Shown: in pieces, positions 31,507 through 58,436 of the stretch
Position numbering within the stretch: position 1 is the first letter of the stretch
Layout of the letters: the number at the start of each line of letters is the position of its first letter
From: Microbulbifer salipaludis
GTDB taxonomy: Bacteria; Pseudomonadota; Gammaproteobacteria; Pseudomonadales; Cellvibrionaceae
NCBI RefSeq assembly: GCF_017303155.1
Contig: NZ_JAEKJR010000002.1
Location: 434,001 to 498,000, forward strand
Reading direction: 5' to 3'
Length of the DNA stretch: 64,000 nt
Position numbers and translations under genes: made by a program
Notes under the pieces: generated by a model
The model's input: only the letters and a program-made list of their open reading frames with translations
What the model was told of the DNA's origin: nothing
Databases searched by the model: none

Positions 31507-32967
31507 TCAATTTGATGGGTGTTCCGCGCCGTTATCCGGGCGCTTGCCGCGGTTTCGGTTGCGCCCGCCACGGCTGCGGCGACCGCGACTCTTACTGCCG
31601 CGCGGACCGCTGCGGGCGGCGTCGCGGACCATTTGCTGGCGCTGTTCTTCATCCGCTGCCTGGAAATCGGTCCACCACTGGCCGAGGCCGGCGGGGATCT
31701 CGCCGCTGTCTTCACGCAGCAGCAGGAAGTCGTAGGCCGCGCGGAAGCGGGGCATTTCCATCAGGCGGAAGGCGCGTTCACCACCGCGGCGCGACAGGCG
31801 CGACTGCATATCCCAGATCTCCCGCATGGGCAGGGAGAAGCGCTTGGGGATGGCGGTGTGTACCAGCTGGTTGCTGGTAATTTTCTGGGCCGCCTGCGCC
31901 AGTGCCGGCACCGGAGGTATGCCCTTCTCGATCAGGAATTTCTGCTCGGAATTGACCGCCGGCCACAACAGCGCGGCGTACAGGAATGCCGGAGTTACGC
32001 GCTGGTCGTTACGAATACGGTCGTCGGTATTGCGCAGTGCCTGGCGGGTAAGCGCCAGCGCTTCCGGCGTATCCAGCTGCAGGGCGTTATCCGGGAACAG
32101 GTGCGGCCACAGCCCGTGTTCGCACAACAGTTCAAAGGTGCGTTCGCCGTTGCCGCTCATGAGCAGCTTGAGGATCTCATCAAACAGGCGCGCGGGTGCG
32201 ATATTGCGCAAAAGCGGCGCCAGCTCTGCGAGCGGTGCGGCCGTGGCGGGCTCGATGTCGAAGTCCAACTTGGCGGCAAAGCGCACCGCGCGCAGCATCC
32301 GCACCGGATCTTCCTTGTAGCGGGTTGCCGGGTCGCCAATCATGCGGATGAGGCGTTGCTCGATATCGCGGATACCACCGGTGTAATCGTGAATTTCGAA
32401 GCCGTTGATGGTGTAGTAGAGCGCATTGACGGTGAAGTCCCGGCGTACCGCGTCACTTTCCAGGTCACCGTAGACATTGTCCCGCAGCAGCATGCCGTGC
32501 TCCGACTGCTGCGCCTCGTGCGCCTCGCCGTCGCTGTGGTGGCCACGGAAGGTGGTGACCTCAATGACTTCACGGCCGATGCGGGCGTGCAGGATGCGGA
32601 AGCGGCGGCCGACGATGCGCGCACCGCGGAACAACTGCTTTGCCTGCTCTGGAGTGGCATCCGTGGCCACATCGAAATCCTTGGGGTGTCCGCCCAGCAG
32701 CAGGTCGCGCACACCACCGCCGACGATGTAGGCCTCAAACCCGGCCTCCTGCAGCCGTTTCATCACGGTCAGAGCCGCACGACTGACGTCGCGGCGGGAA
32801 AGGCAGTGATCACTGCGCGGCACAATCACGCGGGAGGTTTTGGGGGAGCGGTTTTTTTGGGGGGCGGGCTGGCGGCCTTTGCCGGAACGGGAGTCGGCTT
32901 TTGAGCCTTTTCCATCCTTGGGCTTGCTGTGCCAGCGCTTGATACTGCTGATCAGGGAATTGAACAT
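31507..32967 (-). CDS. pcnB: Poly(A) polymerase I
   Basis: Adds 3' poly(A) tails that promote RNA decay. 486 aa. Nucleotidyltransferase core: VGGGVRDLLLG and KDFDVATDATPEQ (catalytic Asp pair), GRRFRILHARIG, RRDFTVNALYY; a basic tail rich in Arg/Gly/Lys at the C-terminus. The basic N-terminal 60 residues are like those of other gammaproteobacterial proteins. First gene after the CrcZ-like RNA region, as in Pseudomonas. Confidence 0.96.
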   Translation of the reverse strand: MFNSLISSIKRWHSKPKDGKGSKADSRSGKGRQPAPQKNRSPKTSRVIVPRSDHCLSRRDVSRAALTVMKRLQEAGFEAYIVGGGVRDLLLGGHPKDFDVATDATPEQAKQLFRGARIVGRRFRILHARIGREVIEVTTFRGHHSDGEAHEAQQSEHGMLLRDNVYGDLESDAVRRDFTVNALYYTINGFEIHDYTGGIRDIEQRLIRMIGDPATRYKEDPVRMLRAVRFAAKLDFDIEPATAAPLAELAPLLRNIAPARLFDEILKLLMSGNGERTFELLCEHGLWPHLFPDNALQLDTPEALALTRQALRNTDDRIRNDQRVTPAFLYAALLWPAVNSEQKFLIEKGIPPVPALAQAAQKITSNQLVHTAIPKRFSLPMREIWDMQSRLSRRGGERAFRLMEMPRFRAAYDFLLLREDSGEIPAGLGQWWTDFQAADEEQRQQMVRDAARSGPRGSKSRGRRSRGGRNRNRGKRPDNGAEHPSN

Positions 32968-33195
32968 ACGGCTTACTGTGTTATCCGCTGCCGCTGAGTT
33001 AAGGGGCAGCTGTGGTATTCCGGGCCTGTATCTTTGGGGCGCCGGGGCATGGCTCCGGGCATCTTACCAATTGGGCCTGCTAGGGCCCGGTTCCGGACGA
33101 TTGTCAGGCGGATTCTAACACACACAGCGAAACGCACAGCTGCCGGGCCCGCTCCTTGCGGGGACCAGCGAATTGTGTGCATTCATTGAAAAGAA
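32968..33195. other. pcnB leader region
   Basis: GC-rich 33000-33150 followed by a pyrimidine/purine-rich strip near 33185-33207 (T-rich on the minus strand). Probably the leader of pcnB and possibly the 3' end of the upstream RNA; no gene seen. Confidence 0.4.
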
Positions 33196-33199
33196 AGAA

Positions 33200-33590
33200 A
33201 AGAAGGGAATTATTCTTATTCGGTATGAAGGCAGCGGCTTCCTTGCGCTATCAATTTGCTTTTCAGCAAACCCTCTCCCAGGCACAATCAGTCAGTTTGT
33301 CACGTGCTTGTCGTTATTTTTGTTGTCTTCTACAAGTTATTGTTCTTGTTATTACTCTTTATTCTTATTGTTTATTTTTATTATTTTATTTATAACTTTT
33401 AGTTATTTTTATTGTTGTTCTGAGCCTTATTATTTTTATTGCTCAAGCTTTGCTCCGGCATCGATCACTTTGGCTTTTATTATCGATCTGCCCGTTCTCT
33501 TATTGTTATTGCGCTTCGCCCGCTTATTGTCAGTTGTTATTAGGGCTTAAACAGTCATTTATTTTTATTCTTGGCTGTTATTGTTGTTTG
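33200..33590 (-). ncRNA. crcZ: CrcZ-like Hfq/Crc-titrating small RNA
   Basis: No protein is plausible here, but the minus strand is AT-rich and packed with AAnAAnAA-type motifs. Examples by plus coordinate: 33578-33589 (AAACAACAATAA on the minus strand), 33558-33570, 33499-33511 (CAATAACAATAAG), 33426-33441, 33404-33420, 33370-33392, 33357-33372, 33337-33357, 33313-33327 and 33210-33221. Such motifs are the binding sites of Hfq/Crc. The location between cbrB and pcnB, the -24/-12 promoter, the TGTTAC/GTAACA boxes and the size near 0.4 kb all match Pseudomonas CrcZ (known family). Start predicted near 33590. The 3' end is uncertain: a hairpin TTTGCT/AGCAAA (33255-33270) and a T-rich strip near 33185-33207 are candidates. 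Confidence 0.82.
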
Positions 33591-33601
33591 ACCTATACAA
33601 A

Positions 33602-33617
33602 GCAGATAGCGTGCCAA
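33602..33617 (-). promoter_or_regulatory. Sigma-54 (-24/-12) promoter of the CrcZ-like RNA
   Basis: The minus strand reads TTGGCACGCTATCTGCTT. GG (33615-33614) and GC (33603-33602) are 10 nt apart; TGGCACG-N4-TTGC is matched with one change (C for the first T of TTGC). Predicted start at about 33590, just where the first AACAACAATAA motif begins. Confidence 0.87.
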
Positions 33618-33691
33618 CTTTATTAATTCCTTATAAATCAATAACTTAACATTTCTTGGAACTTTTTTACGCCGCGTGAACACAGATTTAC

Positions 33692-33753
33692 GTTACACAT
33701 CGTGCGGTGGTTGTTACTCCGGTGGGAGTGGGGGTAACACTTTCATTTGTTAC
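33692..33753. promoter_or_regulatory. Candidate CbrB-binding sites
   Basis: TGTTAC at 33712-33717 and GTAACA at 33734-33739 form an inverted repeat with 16 nt between; a further TGTTAC lies at 33748-33753 and GTTACA at 33692-33697. They sit 100-160 bp upstream of the predicted sigma-54 start, the correct place for an enhancer. TGTTAC/GTAACA half-sites correspond, as I recall, to those described for CbrB upstream of crcZ in Pseudomonas. Confidence 0.75.
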
Positions 33754-33981: not shown

Positions 33982-35379
33982 TCAGGCTTCGGCGACGCGT
34001 TTGGCTTTTTTGCGCGGAATGCCAAGCTTCTGGCGCCGTTCCCACAGGCACTTGCGGCTCACACCCAGCTTCTTGGCCAGCTCGGTCTCGCTCATGGTCT
34101 CCTGGTGCTCCAGCACGAACCGGGCGAAATAGTCTTCCAGAGACAGGTCTTCCCGGGGGTCGGCGTGCAGGCTGTTGATGCGGGGGCGACGCTCCGGGTC
34201 GGCATCCTCGATCGGGACCAGGTCGAGATCAATATCCAGAGTGCGGTGATCAATTTCACTGACGTCTTCGGTGAGGATGACGGCGCGCTGGATCGCATTT
34301 TCCAGTTCGCGCACATTGCCCGGCCAGGTATAGGTGGTCACTGCCTGGATTGCTTCCGGTGACAGCTTCAGGGTGGGGCGATTGATCTTGGCGCAGAACT
34401 TCTCCAGCAGGCTCTCGGCAATAGAGAGCACATCTTTGCCGCGCTCGCGCAGTGGCGGCAGTGTCATCTGAACCACGTTGATGCGGTAGTAAAGGTCTTC
34501 CCGGAACTTGCGCTCCGCGGCCAGCTGCCGCAGGTTTCTGTGGGTGGCCGCCACCAGCCGCACGTTGACCTTGCGGGACTCGATAGCGCCAATGGGGCGT
34601 ACTTCACCCTCCTGCAGTACCCGCAACAGGCGCGCCTGGGCTTCCAGGGGCAGTTCACCGATCTCATCCAGGAACAGGGTCCCGCCATCAGCAGCGGCGA
34701 TCAGTCCCTCGCGCGCGGTCTGGGCGCCGGTAAAGGCACCTTTTTCGTGGCCAAACAGTTCCGCTTCGATCAGGGTTTCCGGGATGGCCGCGCAGTTGAC
34801 GGAAATCAGGGGTTTACCGTTGCGCTTGCTTTCTTCGTGAATTGCGCGTGCAACCAGCTCTTTACCGGTGCCGGTTTCACCGTGCACCAGCACCGTGGCG
34901 TCGGTGGGGGCGACCTTGTGGATGCGCGCGTAGAGATCGCGCATCACCGGGCTGTCGCCAATCATGCCGGTTATCGCGCGGCCCTCGGCCTTGCTGTCGG
35001 CTGCGGCGGCACCGGCGGCGCGATGCTGCTCCGCCTTGCCGATGACCCGGCGTACGGTAGCGAGCATTTCGTCGTGGTCGAAGGGTTTGGCGATGTAGTC
35101 CGCGGCGCCCATACGCATGGAGTCGACGGCAGAGCGCAGGCTGGCGTAGCTGGTCATGATCAGCACCGGCACATCCCCCGCCAGCTTCAGCAGGTCCGTA
35201 CCGGGGGCGCCCGGCAGGCGCAGGTCGGAGATGATCAGATCCATGTCCGTGATGCGAAACTTGGTGGTCGCTTCACGCACAGAGCCGGCCTCACTGATCT
35301 TGTAACGGTGCCTCTCCAGCAGCTTGCGCAGCGCAGTGCGGATAATGGCTTCATCTTCTACGATCAGGATGTGGCTCAT
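33982..35379 (-). CDS. cbrB: Two-component response regulator CbrB (NtrC family)
   Basis: 465 aa. Receiver domain with LIISDLRLPGAP (Asp near residue 53), AAA+ domain with GETGTGKEL, an intact sigma-54 loop GAFTGA (about 214-219) and DEIGELP, and a Fis-type HTH (ELAKKLGVSRKCLWERRQKLGIPRK). Partner of CbrA, controlling carbon/nitrogen balance, in Pseudomonas mainly through crcZ. The identification rests on sequence class and the very specific neighbourhood (cbrA upstream, AAnAAnAA-rich RNA and pcnB downstream). Confidence 0.94.
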   Translation of the reverse strand: MSHILIVEDEAIIRTALRKLLERHRYKISEAGSVREATTKFRITDMDLIISDLRLPGAPGTDLLKLAGDVPVLIMTSYASLRSAVDSMRMGAADYIAKPFDHDEMLATVRRVIGKAEQHRAAGAAAADSKAEGRAITGMIGDSPVMRDLYARIHKVAPTDATVLVHGETGTGKELVARAIHEESKRNGKPLISVNCAAIPETLIEAELFGHEKGAFTGAQTAREGLIAAADGGTLFLDEIGELPLEAQARLLRVLQEGEVRPIGAIESRKVNVRLVAATHRNLRQLAAERKFREDLYYRINVVQMTLPPLRERGKDVLSIAESLLEKFCAKINRPTLKLSPEAIQAVTTYTWPGNVRELENAIQRAVILTEDVSEIDHRTLDIDLDLVPIEDADPERRPRINSLHADPREDLSLEDYFARFVLEHQETMSETELAKKLGVSRKCLWERRQKLGIPRKKAKRVAEA

Positions 35380-35507: not shown

Positions 35508-38504
35508 TCAGTTTTGCAGTGGATTTTCCCCGGCTTCTAGGGGGAGCTGCACGATAAACCGTGCGCCGCGGCCGGTATCCGGGTGGGCGGGGCTGACCAG
35601 CTCCAGTTGTCCGCCGTGCTCTTCCACGATGCTGTATACCATGGCCAGCCCCAGGCCCGTGCCTTCGCCGGGTTCTTTGGTGGTGAAGAAGGGCTCCAGG
35701 ATGCGCTCCCGGTGGGCGGCGGAGATGCCTGGGCCATTGTCGGTCACCGCGATGCAGGCGAGACCGGCGCGCACGTAACCTTCAACTTCGATATGCCCGC
35801 CATCGGGGCTGGCATCACGGGCGTTGCTGAGCAAGTTGATAAACACCTGAATCAACCGCTGATTGTCACCCAGTGCGTAGAGGTCATCGGGCACCAGATT
35901 GGAGAAGGTCACCCGGGTCTTGTCGAGTTGCAGTGACAGCAGCTGCACCGCCTCTTCCACGCACGCGTGCAGGTCCACAGGGGCCTTCTCGCTCTCCTGG
36001 CTGCCACTGTGGGAAAAGCTCACCAGAGAGTGGACGATGCGGCTGATACGCTGGGTCTGGCTGAGAATCTGGTCCGCGGTTTCCAGCACTTCGGGGTTGT
36101 CCGAATCGAACTGCAGATTCTGCGCGAGGCACGCGATGCCGGTGACCGGGTTGCCCACCTCGTGCGCGACCCCGGCCGCCAGACGACCTACGGAAGCGAG
36201 GCGTTCGCTGTGCATCAGCTCCTGTTCCAGCACCTGGGTTTCGGTGATGTCTTCCACCAGCAGCATCTGGCCATCCCCGCGGTTGTCCCTGCCACCGTCC
36301 TTGTATTCGCGGCCGTATTTACCCGTGCGCTGTTTGAGACGGGTCTTGTGCAGGTTGAGCCAGCGGTGAGTACCCTCCATTTCCACCTGCTGTTTAAAGC
36401 GGCTGCCATCGGCGGATTCTGCAAATTCGATTAACAGGGTGCGCCAGGGCTCCTGCAGGTACTCCAGTTTGGAGCCGATCACCTCGCTGGCACCGACCCC
36501 GGTCAGGTCGGCCATGGCGTAGTTCCACAGCAGAATCTCGCCGTCGCGGCCCAGGGAGCAGGCCGCCATCGGCAGCTCTTCCAGCATCTGGCGGTGGTAC
36601 AGGCGCAAGTTGTTCAGTTCCGCGGCGAGGCCGGTGAGCTGGTTTTTGTAGCGGCTCAGACGAGTTTCAATCAGGTTGATGTCTTTGTTGGCAGGCTGGT
36701 CGCTGGTCACAAACGGCAGGTGACGGTCCACGATCTGGCCGGCGAGCACCCGTCCCAGCAGGCCGGACAGATTCGCTTCCAGCTTGTCGCGCAACTGGCG
36801 CAGGGCATAGGGGCGGCGCTCGTCTTCCGGCAGGTTGAGCTGTCGCAGGGCGCGGCTCACTTCCTGGCTGGCGGTGGCGGCACCGAGGCTTTCCGACAGT
36901 CGCAGGCGGAAATCCGTGGCCGATTGCACATCGAGTTCCAGACGCAGTGCCTGGCTGATGGAGTCGTCACTGCACAGGTCCGCGGCGTAGCGTTCGAGGC
37001 TGCTGGCGCGGGTAAAAATCGAGAGTCCCACAAACAGCAGTACATTGACCGACAGCGACAGCGTGGTGATCTGCGGCCAGATCTCCATGCCCAGCGGGAT
37101 CCGGTACTCACCGACCGCAAGGCCACTGTTACCCACCATGGCGGGGAGCAGTAGCCCTGCCGCCCACACGAACATCCCGGCAAGCAGGCCGCCAATAAAC
37201 CCGCGGCGGTTGCCCTGGGGCCAGTGAATCACCGCGAAAATACCCGGCAGAAACTGCAGCGAGGCAATGAATGCAATGATCGCCAGGTCGGAGAGGGACA
37301 GTCGGTTGTTGAGCAGCAGGTAGAACCCGAAGCCCGCCAGAAACAGTGCCGCTACCAGCGCCCGGCGCAGCCACAGTAGCTGGCGGTACATATTGTCATC
37401 GGACTGCCAGCGGGTGCCGGGTAGCAGCCAGTGGTTCATCACCATGGTGGAGAGTGCCAGGGTGATCATGATCAGCGCGCCGGTGGCAGCAGACAGACCG
37501 CCGATAAACGCGAGAATGGTGAGCAGCGCGGACCCGCTGGCGCGTGGTACTGCCAGCGTGAAGTACTGTGCCGGTTCCGTGACATCCAGGGCAAAGCCCG
37601 CCCACATGATGGGGAAAATGGGGAGCGCCATCAGCAGCAAAAACAGCGGGAATCCCCAGCTGGCAGTCCGCAGCGCATGGGTGGCGGGGCGCTCGGCAAT
37701 ACTGAGGTAAAAAATGTGCGGCATTGCCACCGCGGTGGCAATGAAGACCAGTAGTAGTGTGTGGGATGAACCCTGCTTGATCGGGGAATACAGCAGTTGC
37801 TGCATATCGTTGTTTTGCACCAGCCATTGATCGAGGCCACCCAGGCCGCCGAATACGCCGTACACCGCATAGAGCCCAACCGCCAGCAGTGCCACCAGTT
37901 TTACCAAGGATTCCAGCGCCATGGCACTGGCGAGGCCGGCCCTTCTTTTACGGGAGGCGCCATAGGTACTGGTGAACAGCGCCAGCAGAACACAGTAAAG
38001 GAACGCGATGAGGTTTTTGCTGGTAACGCCACTGTCCGGCAGTGCCAGCGCGGCAGCATCGTCGCGGGAAAGCAGGGCCAGGGTTTCTGCCACGGCCTGA
38101 ATCTGTAGCGCGATCAGCGGCAGCAGTCCGAGCAGCATAAACAGGGTGGCGAGGGTGCCGGCCTCGCGGCTGTGGTAGCGGAAAACGAGCAGGTCGGCGG
38201 GGGAAGTCAGCTGGTAGCGCTGCGCCAGCCGCGCGAGCGGTTCCAGCGCCACCGGCGCAAACAGAAACATGGCGCCGGTGCCCAGGTAGTAAGCGAGCAC
38301 CCCGTAACCATGCTGCCACGCCAGGTCCACGATGCCGTAATAGGTCCAGGCGCTGAGAGAAACCCCCAGGGACAAAACGTAAACGAAGGGATGCCGCACC
38401 CAGTTACTGGGCAGCCACCCCTTGGATGTGGCGAAGGCGACGAAGAACAGGGCGAAAATATACGCGACGCCAATCAGCGCAATGTTGACGATCTCAAAGG
38501 TCAT
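35508..38504 (-). CDS. cbrA: Sensor histidine kinase CbrA with SLC5-type membrane domain
   Basis: 998 aa. The first half (about 1-500) is a sodium:solute-symporter-like domain with 12-13 helices (start MTFEIVNIALIGVAYIFALF). Then comes a linker, a PAS domain (about 640-740, LPMAACSLGRDGEILLWNYAMADLTGVG), the phosphoacceptor His near residue 780 (GVAHEVGNPVTGIACLAQN) and an HATPase domain ending GTGLGLAMVYSIVEEHGGQ. This combination is diagnostic for CbrA, which in Pseudomonas couples histidine transport and sensing to CbrB. Overlaps the small upstream gene by 11 bp. Confidence 0.95.
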   Translation of the reverse strand: MTFEIVNIALIGVAYIFALFFVAFATSKGWLPSNWVRHPFVYVLSLGVSLSAWTYYGIVDLAWQHGYGVLAYYLGTGAMFLFAPVALEPLARLAQRYQLTSPADLLVFRYHSREAGTLATLFMLLGLLPLIALQIQAVAETLALLSRDDAAALALPDSGVTSKNLIAFLYCVLLALFTSTYGASRKRRAGLASAMALESLVKLVALLAVGLYAVYGVFGGLGGLDQWLVQNNDMQQLLYSPIKQGSSHTLLLVFIATAVAMPHIFYLSIAERPATHALRTASWGFPLFLLLMALPIFPIMWAGFALDVTEPAQYFTLAVPRASGSALLTILAFIGGLSAATGALIMITLALSTMVMNHWLLPGTRWQSDDNMYRQLLWLRRALVAALFLAGFGFYLLLNNRLSLSDLAIIAFIASLQFLPGIFAVIHWPQGNRRGFIGGLLAGMFVWAAGLLLPAMVGNSGLAVGEYRIPLGMEIWPQITTLSLSVNVLLFVGLSIFTRASSLERYAADLCSDDSISQALRLELDVQSATDFRLRLSESLGAATASQEVSRALRQLNLPEDERRPYALRQLRDKLEANLSGLLGRVLAGQIVDRHLPFVTSDQPANKDINLIETRLSRYKNQLTGLAAELNNLRLYHRQMLEELPMAACSLGRDGEILLWNYAMADLTGVGASEVIGSKLEYLQEPWRTLLIEFAESADGSRFKQQVEMEGTHRWLNLHKTRLKQRTGKYGREYKDGGRDNRGDGQMLLVEDITETQVLEQELMHSERLASVGRLAAGVAHEVGNPVTGIACLAQNLQFDSDNPEVLETADQILSQTQRISRIVHSLVSFSHSGSQESEKAPVDLHACVEEAVQLLSLQLDKTRVTFSNLVPDDLYALGDNQRLIQVFINLLSNARDASPDGGHIEVEGYVRAGLACIAVTDNGPGISAAHRERILEPFFTTKEPGEGTGLGLAMVYSIVEEHGGQLELVSPAHPDTGRGARFIVQLPLEAGENPLQN

Positions 38505-38670
38505 CGGGCTTGCGCCTCCGCTGAATAACGATCGCCAGCAGGATGAGCACGAACCATAGAATGAACGGGCGATACCAGGCGCCGGTTGGATTGATCATCC
38601 AGGTGAATACGGTGGGGCTGAACACGTAGCCCACCAGTACCAGCAGGATTAACAGGGTGCGGTTGCTCAT
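38494..38670 (-). CDS. cbrX: Small membrane protein upstream of cbrA (CbrX-like)
   Basis: 58 aa from ATG at 38670 (MSNRTLLILLVLVGYVFSP); a longer upstream reading is unlikely because it is Pro-rich and lacks family character. Two hydrophobic segments, a central WMINPTGAWYRPF and a basic end (IQRRRKPDDL). It overlaps the cbrA start by 11 bp, so translation is probably coupled. Pseudomonas has a similar small gene overlapping cbrA, named cbrX; the name here is by position and size. Confidence 0.75.
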   Translation of the reverse strand: MSNRTLLILLVLVGYVFSPTVFTWMINPTGAWYRPFILWFVLILLAIVIQRRRKPDDL

Positions 38671-55892: not shown

Positions 55893-58037
55893 TCAAAATG
55901 TATAGCTGCCGGAGATGCCTGCCGTGCGCGGCTCACCCAGCTGGTAGTAGGCTTCCGGCGCGTAGCCATTGGCCGGGTTGTTGCCAAACTGGTTGCTGAA
56001 ATAGAAGCCGCGGGTGTACACCACCTCATCGGTGAGGTTTCTGCCCCACAGGGAGACATGCCAGCGGTCCTCGCGGTAGGTCAGCTTCGCATTGACCAGC
56101 TCGTAGGCGGTGGACTTCTCGTTGTGGCTGTTGGAGAAATAGAAGTCGTCCTTGCCCTCCAGTTCGACGCGCGCCGTAAGGTTGCTGCTCAGCGCGTATT
56201 CCGCACCGGCAAAGAACTGGTAATTCGGCGCGTGGGCCAGGTCGCGGCCGTCGAGGTTCACCGGCGGAAGCGCTTCACCGTTGGAGTCGTCCCGCGCATC
56301 CACATGGGCGGCGGTAACGAAATCATCGAACTCGGCGTTCAGCCAACCGAAGGTGGCGAACAGCTGCAGGGCTTCGGATGCCTGGAACTGGAGCTCGGCT
56401 TCGATACCGCTGCTGTATCCACCCGCGGCGTTGGTCAGGTAGTCGTCGAAGGAGAAATCGTCCGGGTTGAAGATGGACTGTTTGGCCTGGACGTCGTTGC
56501 GGTCCTGATAAAAGGCCGCGAGCTGCGCCTGCAATCGGTTTTCCAGCCAGTCGCCTTTTATGCCCAGCTCGTAGTTCAGCATGCTTTCGGTGTCGAACAG
56601 GTAGGTATCTTCCCCGATGGCAGGGTTGCTCGCGGACGCCGAGATAATCCGCCCGTTCACGCCACCCGCCTTGTAGCCGCGCGACAGGGTGCCGTAGAGC
56701 ATGGTGTTATCGGTCGCGCTGAATTGCAGGGTGATATTGCCACCCCACAGGCTTTCGTCGTTGCGATTGGCCACCTGCAGATTGTCACTGTAGTCCGCGC
56801 GGCGCTGCTCCAGGCGCAGGCCGGTAATCAGTTCAACGCGCGCGCCCAGGGCGGTATTCAACTGGCCGTAAAGCGCGGCATTGTCGGTGTCGAACTGGCT
56901 GGTGAAACTGGCGTTGCGTTCGAGCCCTTCTTCTTCGGTGCGTAAATATACCCCGGCCACCCAGTCGGTGCTGTCACCGAACAGGCGGCTCTGGTCGGTG
57001 GAGGCCAGTCGCACATCGGCACTCAGGTTGTTGCGCTCACGCTGGTAGTTATCGGTGGAGCTGTATTCCCAGGGGTGGAAGCCCTCATAGGTCCAGTCTT
57101 CGTCGTAGCCGTATTCGGTGTCGGAACTGGCGGCGCTCAGTACGGATTTAACGGTGAACAGCGGACTACCGCTCCAGGTTGAGCTGACCGCGCCGGCGAG
57201 GGTTTGCTGGCGGTCCCAGCCGGGCTGGTCGGAGAGGGTATTGCGGGAGTTGTCGAAGCTGAAGGCGTCGTAGCCGTTGTCCGCATCCAGGTACAGCAGG
57301 GTGAAATCCAGCTGCAGGTCATCGCTGGCCTGATAGCGCAGCTTGCCGCGCGCCACGGTCTCGTCGATGTTGTTGGTGTCTTTGCGGTTCAGGTAACGGT
57401 TATGCACGTAGCCGTCGGACTGCTGGTTCTGTAGCGCGAAGCGGTAGCTCAGCTGCTCGGACAACGGGCCGCTGGTGACGGCGGACAGGGTGTGGGAGCC
57501 GTAGCGGGCGGCTTCCGCGGAGACTTTTGCATAGTTCTCGGTAGTCGGCGCATGACTGGTCATGGTGACCAGGCCGGCCAGGGCGTTGGCACCGTATACC
57601 GTGCCCTGGGGGCCGCGCAGGATTTCTACCTGCTGCATGTCGAGGGTGCTGGCGGCAAGGCCCAAACCGGTAAAGTCGATGCCGTCGACGATCAGGCCCA
57701 CTGAGGAATTGACCGGGTCGATAAACTGGCTGCGCTCACCGATACCGCGAATCTGTACAAAGCGGCCCCGGGAGGCGCCACTGGAGAAATTCACGTTGGG
57801 GGCCAGGTTCAGCAGTTGCTCCAGGTTGGTGGCGCCGCGGGTTTCGATGGCGCTGGCATCCAGCACGCTGACACTGGTGGGGGTGTCGAACTGGCCAGCC
57901 GCGCGCAGCTGGCCGGTTACCACCACCTCCTCGAGGGCGGTTTCGGCCAGGGTAGCACTGCTGATCAGCACGATTCCGGCGCTGACAGCCTGGGCGATCG
58001 GTTTGATGCGGGATTTGAGGCGGTTATCGATATTCAT
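55893..58037 (-). CDS. TonB-dependent outer membrane receptor, thiamine-regulated
   Basis: 714 aa. Signal peptide ending in TLAETA, TonB-box-like EEVVVTGQL, plug domain (about 45-160, SVGLIVDGIDFTGLGL, VEILRGPQGTVYGANALAGLV) and a 22-strand-type barrel ending in the terminal Phe (GISGSYTF). The TPP riboswitch in its leader and the thiamine-type genes downstream point to thiamine, its phosphates or precursors as ligand. First gene of the minus-strand operon. Confidence 0.9.
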   Translation of the reverse strand: MNIDNRLKSRIKPIAQAVSAGIVLISSATLAETALEEVVVTGQLRAAGQFDTPTSVSVLDASAIETRGATNLEQLLNLAPNVNFSSGASRGRFVQIRGIGERSQFIDPVNSSVGLIVDGIDFTGLGLAASTLDMQQVEILRGPQGTVYGANALAGLVTMTSHAPTTENYAKVSAEAARYGSHTLSAVTSGPLSEQLSYRFALQNQQSDGYVHNRYLNRKDTNNIDETVARGKLRYQASDDLQLDFTLLYLDADNGYDAFSFDNSRNTLSDQPGWDRQQTLAGAVSSTWSGSPLFTVKSVLSAASSDTEYGYDEDWTYEGFHPWEYSSTDNYQRERNNLSADVRLASTDQSRLFGDSTDWVAGVYLRTEEEGLERNASFTSQFDTDNAALYGQLNTALGARVELITGLRLEQRRADYSDNLQVANRNDESLWGGNITLQFSATDNTMLYGTLSRGYKAGGVNGRIISASASNPAIGEDTYLFDTESMLNYELGIKGDWLENRLQAQLAAFYQDRNDVQAKQSIFNPDDFSFDDYLTNAAGGYSSGIEAELQFQASEALQLFATFGWLNAEFDDFVTAAHVDARDDSNGEALPPVNLDGRDLAHAPNYQFFAGAEYALSSNLTARVELEGKDDFYFSNSHNEKSTAYELVNAKLTYREDRWHVSLWGRNLTDEVVYTRGFYFSNQFGNNPANGYAPEAYYQLGEPRTAGISGSYTF

Positions 58038-58110
58038 GGCTCTCTCAGTGATGTCAGTGATGTCGGTGAGAGACCCGGTGTGCGACGTGAAGAGGAGAGC
58101 TGGAGGACTA

Positions 58111-58206
58111 CCTATTCCTACGCCGGTATTAGCCGGATCAGGTTCAAGGGTTTGCGGGCCGGGTCGCTTGGAACCGGCAGCATCTCAGGCGTTTGCCACC
58201 CCTTAG
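58111..58206 (-). ncRNA. TPP riboswitch (THI element)
   Basis: Read on the minus strand: AAGGGGTGGC at the 5' side, CTGAG, then ACCCTTGAACCTGATCCGG, CTAATACCGGCGTAGGAATAGG. These are the fixed blocks of the THI element in the correct order. It ends about 70 nt before the receptor start and should repress the operon when thiamine diphosphate is plentiful. Confidence 0.95.
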
Positions 58207-58436
58207 GTTTTACCGGCGCGATGCTATCAGATATACGTTGGCACAGGAACTGCGGCGGGGCCGCGCGGGTTATCTGGCTGGTGGGCAGAGCCGATTCGTT
58301 GTGATGGTTGCAGCGGGCATGACGGTACTGGCTGTGCCAGGTCTTTATCACACAACGATTTTTTTTAACTGGCTGGATTTGCTAGGCGGCAGATTCCTTT
58401 ACACTGCGGACTCTTATCCAATGTACTGGAGCCTGT
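58207..58436. other. Intergenic region between riboswitch and puuA-like gene
   Basis: About 230 bp. Must contain the promoter of the thiamine operon (minus) and that of the ligase gene (plus). Nothing else recognisable. Confidence 0.4.

Follow-up and report, generated by a model that had tools for sequence, protein, structure and literature searches.

A CrcZ-like RNA gene predicted between cbrB and pcnB in Microbulbifer salipaludis, part of a CbrAB-CrcZ module found widely in its order

In Pseudomonas, CrcX is a decoy RNA under the control of CbrB, and both it and CrcY lie outside the gap between cbrB and pcnB. CrcY is described likewise as another CbrB-controlled decoy RNA (PMC6296734), and CrcZ of P. 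aeruginosa as an RNA of 407 nt with six A-rich stretches (PMC4063720). A passage of the former paper calls CbrAB exclusive of the Pseudomonads. A 2022 review presents the system as unique to the Pseudomonadaceae, where it would be hosted by Pseudomonas and Azotobacter exclusively, and gives these two genera as the only ones in which the cbrA-cbrB-crcZ organisation has been described (PMC8871633). Elsewhere the names cbrA and cbrB appear in annotations: transcripts of cbrAB were counted in a mesopelagic metatranscriptome (PMC5073097), and the genome of a gammaproteobacterium from a vent lists a CbrA/CbrB homologue (PMC4136832); the passages concerned leave CrcZ unmentioned. Our literature search, outside which lay subscription papers and supplements, found no paper naming both CrcZ and Cellvibrio, and prior reports are possible. 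Alcanivorax is a member of the same order as the bacterium considered here. A study of sRNAs in that genus, which it described as being without Crc, annotated them via Rfam and names neither crcZ, cbrB nor pcnB; it offers an example of how the CbrAB-CrcZ system can be overlooked (PMC9788540).

The stretch of DNA that was analysed, called the window throughout, is 64 kb of the 3.98-Mb genome. Its minus strand carries a cbrX-like ORF, cbrA, cbrB, a gap of 1014 bp, pcnB and folK. The cbrX-like ORF (58 aa, 38494..38670) overlaps the start of cbrA by 11 nt, and is 47% identical to the ORF in the corresponding position of Pseudomonas fildesensis (L004) and 59% to that of Gilvimarinus agarilyticus (L002). 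The product of cbrA (35508..38504), an SLC5-STAC transceptor histidine kinase, is 48% identical to Pseudomonas CbrA. In a search of solved structures its best match was 10ed, with 538 bits across residues 1-601, an entry deposited as CbrXA SLC5-STAC of Pseudomonas (PMC13022988). CbrB (33982..35379), an NtrC-type sigma-54 activator matching Pfam Sigma54_activat, is 63% identical to its Pseudomonas counterpart, and pcnB (31507..32967), the 3' neighbour of the predicted RNA gene, encodes a poly(A) polymerase (TIGR01942, 533 bits). The order cbrX-cbrA-cbrB-crcZ-pcnB-folK is common to the window, to P. fildesensis and to Serpens gallinarum (L008), in a comparison made on two Pseudomonadaceae loci, with Azotobacter outside it. 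A preliminary description of this DNA, made from its letters alone, had recognised the gene order of Pseudomonas here, and rightly so; the locus matches the position of crcZ, as against those of crcY and crcX. Elsewhere in the window, a TPP riboswitch (65 bits, 58098-58213, minus strand) lies just upstream of a gene for a TonB-dependent receptor (55896-57923, minus strand), a pair probably concerned with thiamine-related uptake.

On the minus strand of the gap, where about a dozen AAnAAnAA motifs had been claimed, we counted 13 non-overlapping and 29 overlapping copies; no non-overlapping copy was present on the plus strand. The array begins at 33588 and the last motif of its main cluster is at 33321. 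In 200 dinucleotide shuffles of the gap, the mean was 2.7 and the maximum 7. The densest other 400-nt piece of the 64 kb holds 3 motifs, and over 400 kb drawn from the rest of the genome (15,680 windows) the maximum was 4 per 400 nt. This ARN/AAnAAnAA array would form the 5' part of the CrcZ-like RNA (33314..33590, minus strand), with a start near 33590 as predicted from the promoter. For comparison between loci, non-overlapping AAnAAnAA were counted over 450 nt downstream of the promoter. Against 13 in the window, the counts ranged from 5 to 15 in its genus (median 13, n=24), from 3 to 14 in other genera of the Cellvibrionaceae (median 8, n=41), from 5 to 8 in the Pseudomonadaceae (median 6, n=7) and from 2 to 14 in other families (median 5, n=29). 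The earlier impression that the window exceeds P. aeruginosa CrcZ is therefore right when 13 is set against 5-8 in the Pseudomonadaceae, and needs correction as to the five motifs said to be usually quoted for that RNA, for which six are described (PMC4063720).

The sigma-54 promoter preceding the array, TTGGCACGCTATCTGC, occupies 33602..33617 on the minus strand, and its -24/-12 elements have the exact 10-nt spacing first reported (GG-N10-GC). By itself such a string is unconvincing, since TGGCACN6TGC has 91 matches genome-wide, compared with 34 for the reversed pattern. A looser sigma-54 pattern finds six matches in the window, and only TTGGCACGCTATCTGC has the array behind it (7 motifs per 100 nt versus 0-1). 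Further upstream on the same strand, the TGTTAC/GTAACA boxes of the preliminary description were found again: an extra GTAACA at 33748..33753 (-137 from the promoter), the CbrB subsite F1, TGTTAC, at 33734..33739 (-123), and R1, GTAACA, at 33712..33717 (-101). To these can be added R2, GTAACG, at 33691..33696 (-80), with one mismatch. P. putida promoters are described as having one forward and two reverse CbrB subsites with centres 20-25 bp apart, and R2 of P. putida crcZ is given as GTAACg, identical in its letters to that of the window (PMC6296734). With the third subsite, therefore, the F1-R1-R2 set known from P. putida is complete here.

The geometry of these subsites is fixed. Offsets are -124/-104/-82 in P. 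fildesensis against -123/-101/-80 in the window, and across loci the subsites cluster at -123, -102 and -80 from the promoter, separated by some two turns of the helix. In 76 of 104 loci the full set was found at the fixed offsets, each subsite with one mismatch at most, versus 0.2% of 5,200 random anchors; at least two of the three, under the same limit, were found in 89 of 104. Between the boxes and the promoter, at 33636..33648 (minus strand; WATCAANNNNTTR on the opposite strand), lies an exact match to the IHF consensus. Of 105 gaps, a set counted before duplicate removal, 42 have an exact IHF site no more than 100 bp upstream of the promoter, against 1.1 expected. A strict search of the genome for TGTTAC-N-GTAACA-N-TGGC matched the crcZ-like locus only (reversed-pattern control, 2), and thus no exact-box paralogue was found. 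In one locus (L141, genome G029), with boxes and array intact, the -12 element has TGT in place of TGC (TGGCACGCTAAATGT; gap position 565). The Rfam sRNA P36 (RF01679) matches just upstream of CrcZ in four of six Pseudomonadaceae loci (L191 209-269, L171 174-236, L170 127-187, L004 5477-5537), where it overlaps the CbrB-box region of the crcZ promoter.

The Rfam model of CrcZ (RF01675) gives the window 21.1 bits, with a gathering score of 95. It passes six of six Pseudomonadaceae loci and none of 14 others, and was dropped as a test of identity because it is too narrow outside the Pseudomonadaceae. The predicted RNA is outside RF01675 as modelled, and among the features tested it is the Rfam sequence threshold alone that it does not reach. 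With CrcZ of Pseudomonas the window shares the sigma-54 promoter, F1, R1 and R2, the A-rich array, and Hfq and Crc encoded in the genome; it differs in having an CANGGANG hairpin 3' of the array, no recognisable terminator and a score below the Rfam gathering value. Taken together, the gap very probably encodes an orthologue of crcZ, as a longer variant bearing a CsrA site.

We defined the module as a sigma-54 site, an A-rich array and a CbrB box, and followed it through the family and the order. CbrB was found in 117 of 120 Cellvibrionaceae genomes (E<=1e-100), and the module in 65 of 69 Cellvibrionaceae loci examined, the named loci apart, representing 30 of 32 genera. Two loci (L112 of G022 and L151 of G059) lack it beside cbrB; there it lies some 2.4-2.5 kb downstream, immediately ahead of pcnB. 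In G030 a short A-rich match alone, on another contig, is unconfirmed as a module; G017 is a 68%-complete genome whose contig ends 427 bases past cbrB. Among 390 genomes of the order, 271 have CbrB relatives (E<=1e-140), in 112 of 142 genera. Outside the Cellvibrionaceae (f1), 40 stretches downstream of cbrB were fetched and 38 kept, from families drawn from the listed CbrB matches, weaker CbrB relatives being outside the sample. The module was present in 34 of these 38 loci and 26 of 30 families, one of which (f20) we assigned to the Pseudomonadaceae since its searched loci pass the Rfam CrcZ model. The families without it, represented by one locus each, were f2 (contig end), f8, f10 and f17. 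Eight stretches (L161, L167, L168, L178, L182, L183, L187 and L188) contain two promoter-plus-array modules, each with at least one exact box, and are possible tandem CrcZ pairs; L133 and L154 have a weak second match.

Overall, 104 of 114 cbrB-downstream loci have the module: without exception the 97 in which an adjacent pcnB was found, and 7 of the remaining 17. L005 (contig end) and L006, two named loci, are among the ten without. Left out of these counts were L193 (a misplaced stretch), L119 (the same locus as L002) and L176, whose contig ends at the cbrB stop. Motifs and promoter are thus kept in every gap with pcnB adjacent, so that the refutation by non-conservation foreseen in the preliminary description is not borne out. 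Within the same class, none of the 20 CbrB-like loci of other orders that were read (25 found; about 2 kb each, 0.85 kb for L229) had pcnB or the module. To judge by its DNA parts, CbrAB-CrcZ is an order-level system, wide in the order rather than confined to the lineage of the window. The suggestion that such a locus exists outside Pseudomonas is supported and was understated, as the module occurs in 26 families outside the Pseudomonadaceae, namely the Cellvibrionaceae and 25 other sampled families.

Genes for the expected partners, crc and hfq, for which a search had been proposed, are both present in the genome, which also encodes RpoN and has one match to CsrA. Hfq scores 102 bits against PF17209, and its nearest solved structures are the 1u1s group, 1u1s being Hfq of P. 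aeruginosa. Crc, a protein of 255 aa (L084:1315-2079, minus strand), matches 4jg3 (Catabolite repression control protein) with 266 bits and 2myi (labelled Exodeoxyribonuclease III) with 252; among remoter structures, the 4b5h/2jc5 group gives 170 bits and the E. coli-type exonuclease III 1ako gives 32. It is closer to Crc than to exonuclease III. Other PF03372 matches (L082, which is exonuclease III, L083, L085 and L086) were read and discarded. Residues K77, K135, R138, K139, R140 and R141, described as the basic patch of Crc that engages RNA in Hfq-Crc assemblies (PMC9890229), are fully kept. E61, E86, R90 and E193 of P. aeruginosa Crc, also mutated in that work, are different in this copy, and assembly on RNA may differ.

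Crc was found in 117 of 120 genomes of the family (E<=1e-30), although the sole match in G076, 33% identical, is probably not Crc. In the order, 267 of 390 genomes have Crc relatives at E<=1e-60, a threshold that some exonucleases may pass. Four genomes with CbrB and the CrcZ module, G146 and G183 (f28; L177 and L194), G140 (f22; L172) and G121 (f3; L159), have no Crc match at that threshold and possibly have a decoy RNA without Crc. Conversely, f15 and f26 include genomes with Crc relatives and, among the matches listed, none with CbrB at E<=1e-140.

The part of the predicted RNA that lies 3' of the array has features of its own. A conserved TGGGAGAGG, followed by a hairpin GTTTGCT-GAAA-AGCAAAT, occupies 33254..33280 on the minus strand. 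Beyond it, a TAGCG/CGCTG hairpin at 33232..33250 (minus strand) is predicted to present a CsrA/Rsm-type site, CAAGGAAG (33245-33238), as the loop of a 5-bp stem with an outer G-U pair. A motif TGG(A/G)..GG, sought with a loose expression, is found 3' of the array in 62 of 104 loci, against 3.1 expected from single-base shuffles; the stretch matching this position in the Pseudomonas loci is TTTTGGAGAGG. CrcZ of P. aeruginosa is described as binding both RsmN, which requires a UUGGA motif, and RsmA, which requires an AGGGA motif in the 3' part of the RNA (PMC6061880). Further on, CANGGANG occurs in 58 of 104 loci versus 6.2 expected: in 57 of 68 Cellvibrionaceae loci, including all 24 of the window's genus, and in one of 36 others. 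Both N positions take all four bases across the 57 Cellvibrionaceae loci, as expected if the fixed letters alone matter, and an ANGGAN hexaloop is described as a known target of RsmE (PMC7652899). In 47 of 104 loci, where 8.5 would be expected, ANGGA falls in the loop of a plain hairpin.

When 5' and 3' flanks were exchanged between loci as a control, covariation in the CANGGANG stem across genera proved weak (native mean 3.12; swapped flanks 2.69, sd 0.17, maximum 3.27), and the hairpin is therefore supported mainly by loop conservation and case examples. RNAs of the RsmY/RsmZ/CsrB type usually have many GGA hairpins, whereas the window RNA has one clear site, beside its Hfq/Crc array. Like those CsrA decoys, it has ANGGA in a hairpin loop, according to the consensus described in PMC7652899. 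The ANGGA site 3' of the array in the Cellvibrionaceae RNA probably binds CsrA, and the presence of CANGGANG suggests a second decoy function for these copies. Its frequency in the family, together with the four genomes that have the module and no Crc match at E<=1e-60, would fit an RNA that titrates Hfq alone or mainly CsrA, Crc-type repression not being its output in this lineage. We hold this to be unlikely, for nearly every Cellvibrionaceae genome searched has Crc, and the copy in the window's genome keeps its RNA-facing patch.

The 3' end of the RNA can be placed, with uncertainty, at a U-rich tract at 33189..33209 (minus strand). Neither a general scan nor a terminator-hairpin criterion found a canonical terminator in the window, and the latter was negative in 23 of 24 loci of the genus, the match in L101 being a weak 6-bp stem; this criterion is strict and also misses five of seven Pseudomonadaceae loci. 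A discrete RNA of about 0.4 kb is therefore a possibility. Folding predictions for the RNA as a whole and for its 3' end came out no stabler than shuffles (z -0.40 and +0.61), so that global structure lends no support. Another reading, favoured by the want of a convincing terminator in the 24 loci of the genus, takes the sigma-54 transcript for a 5' leader of pcnB, long and rich in A; CbrB would then drive poly(A) polymerase, and Hfq/Crc would control pcnB translation in cis. It is helped by the fact that no sigma-70-like promoter was found before pcnB on the minus strand, and that the module stays beside pcnB in the two genomes where genes part it from cbrB. We nevertheless think it quite improbable: 55 of the 104 loci have a terminator-like hairpin 3' of the promoter where single-base shuffles predict 0.6, and about 350-620 bp separate the array from the start of pcnB, placing it away from the ribosome-binding site. 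Readthrough into pcnB and a decoy could also coexist. That the gap is an AT-rich spacer, with A-rich triplets devoid of RNA function and a promoter match by chance, is hardly credible, common as sigma-54-like strings are in the genome, given the fixed geometry, the order-wide conservation, the strand bias of the motifs and the want of any comparable array in 400 kb.

AAnAAnAA was also sought at translation starts, as a mark of possible targets. In the window and 20 other stretches, 14 of 232 ORF starts, which are crude and approximate, have it between -30 and +15, where single-base shuffles predict 6.1. In four flanking windows of the same length there were 7, 5, 4 and 3 motif-bearing starts, and at the same place on the opposite strand none; the excess is modest (p 0.06 against one flanking window). 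An earlier, cruder run on start codons had given 14 of 275 versus 0 in one internal window, and the stricter run is the one reported. Nine of the 14 ORFs encode a pullulanase, GH5 and GH9 cellulases, two collagenases, three TonB receptors and an MFS/POT transporter; the other five encode a glutamine synthetase, a phosphofructokinase, an epimerase, an SRAP protein and one protein without a family. Secreted hydrolases, TonB receptors or transporters thus make up 9 of 14 ORFs with the motif and 6 of 40 length-matched ORFs without it (Fisher p 0.001, or 0.006 with two further peptidases counted), under a functional rule fixed after the list had been seen. The 40 controls are those searched out of 42. 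Their cutoff was E<=1e-10 and that of the positives E<=1e-5; all nine counted positives pass 1e-10. Where AAnAAnAA stands at a translation start, the gene tends to be one for a secreted hydrolase or a TonB receptor.

Read as a crcZ orthologue, the locus would be transcribed, would bind proteins and would act in the cell as follows. Under carbon limitation, CbrA would signal to CbrB, which would occupy F1, R1 and R2 while IHF bends the DNA, and sigma-54 polymerase would initiate the RNA near 33590, towards pcnB. The dozen or so ARN/AAnAAnAA tracts would engage Hfq hexamers, on their distal face, jointly with Crc. Hfq/Crc would in this way be drawn off the A-rich ribosome-binding sites of catabolic mRNAs, and catabolite repression would be lifted. 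The conserved ANGGA site 3' of the array would, in the Cellvibrionaceae RNA, bind CsrA. More tentatively, and with somewhat less than even confidence, we propose that CrcZ is ancestral to this whole gammaproteobacterial order and that in the Cellvibrionaceae it is a dual decoy, for Hfq-Crc through the array and for CsrA through a C-ANGGAN-G hairpin.

The occurrence of the module in so many families would turn what has been regarded as a peculiarity at the level of the genus into a regulatory system at the level of the order. It also supplies natural variants with which decoy strength could be tested against array length, from 2 to 15 motifs, with tandem copies and with genomes without a clear Crc. 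If the dual decoy is true, one CbrB-controlled RNA switches the catabolite-repression and Csr regulons in polysaccharide degraders, and an order-wide CbrAB-CrcZ would suggest how marine polysaccharide degraders rank their carbon sources.
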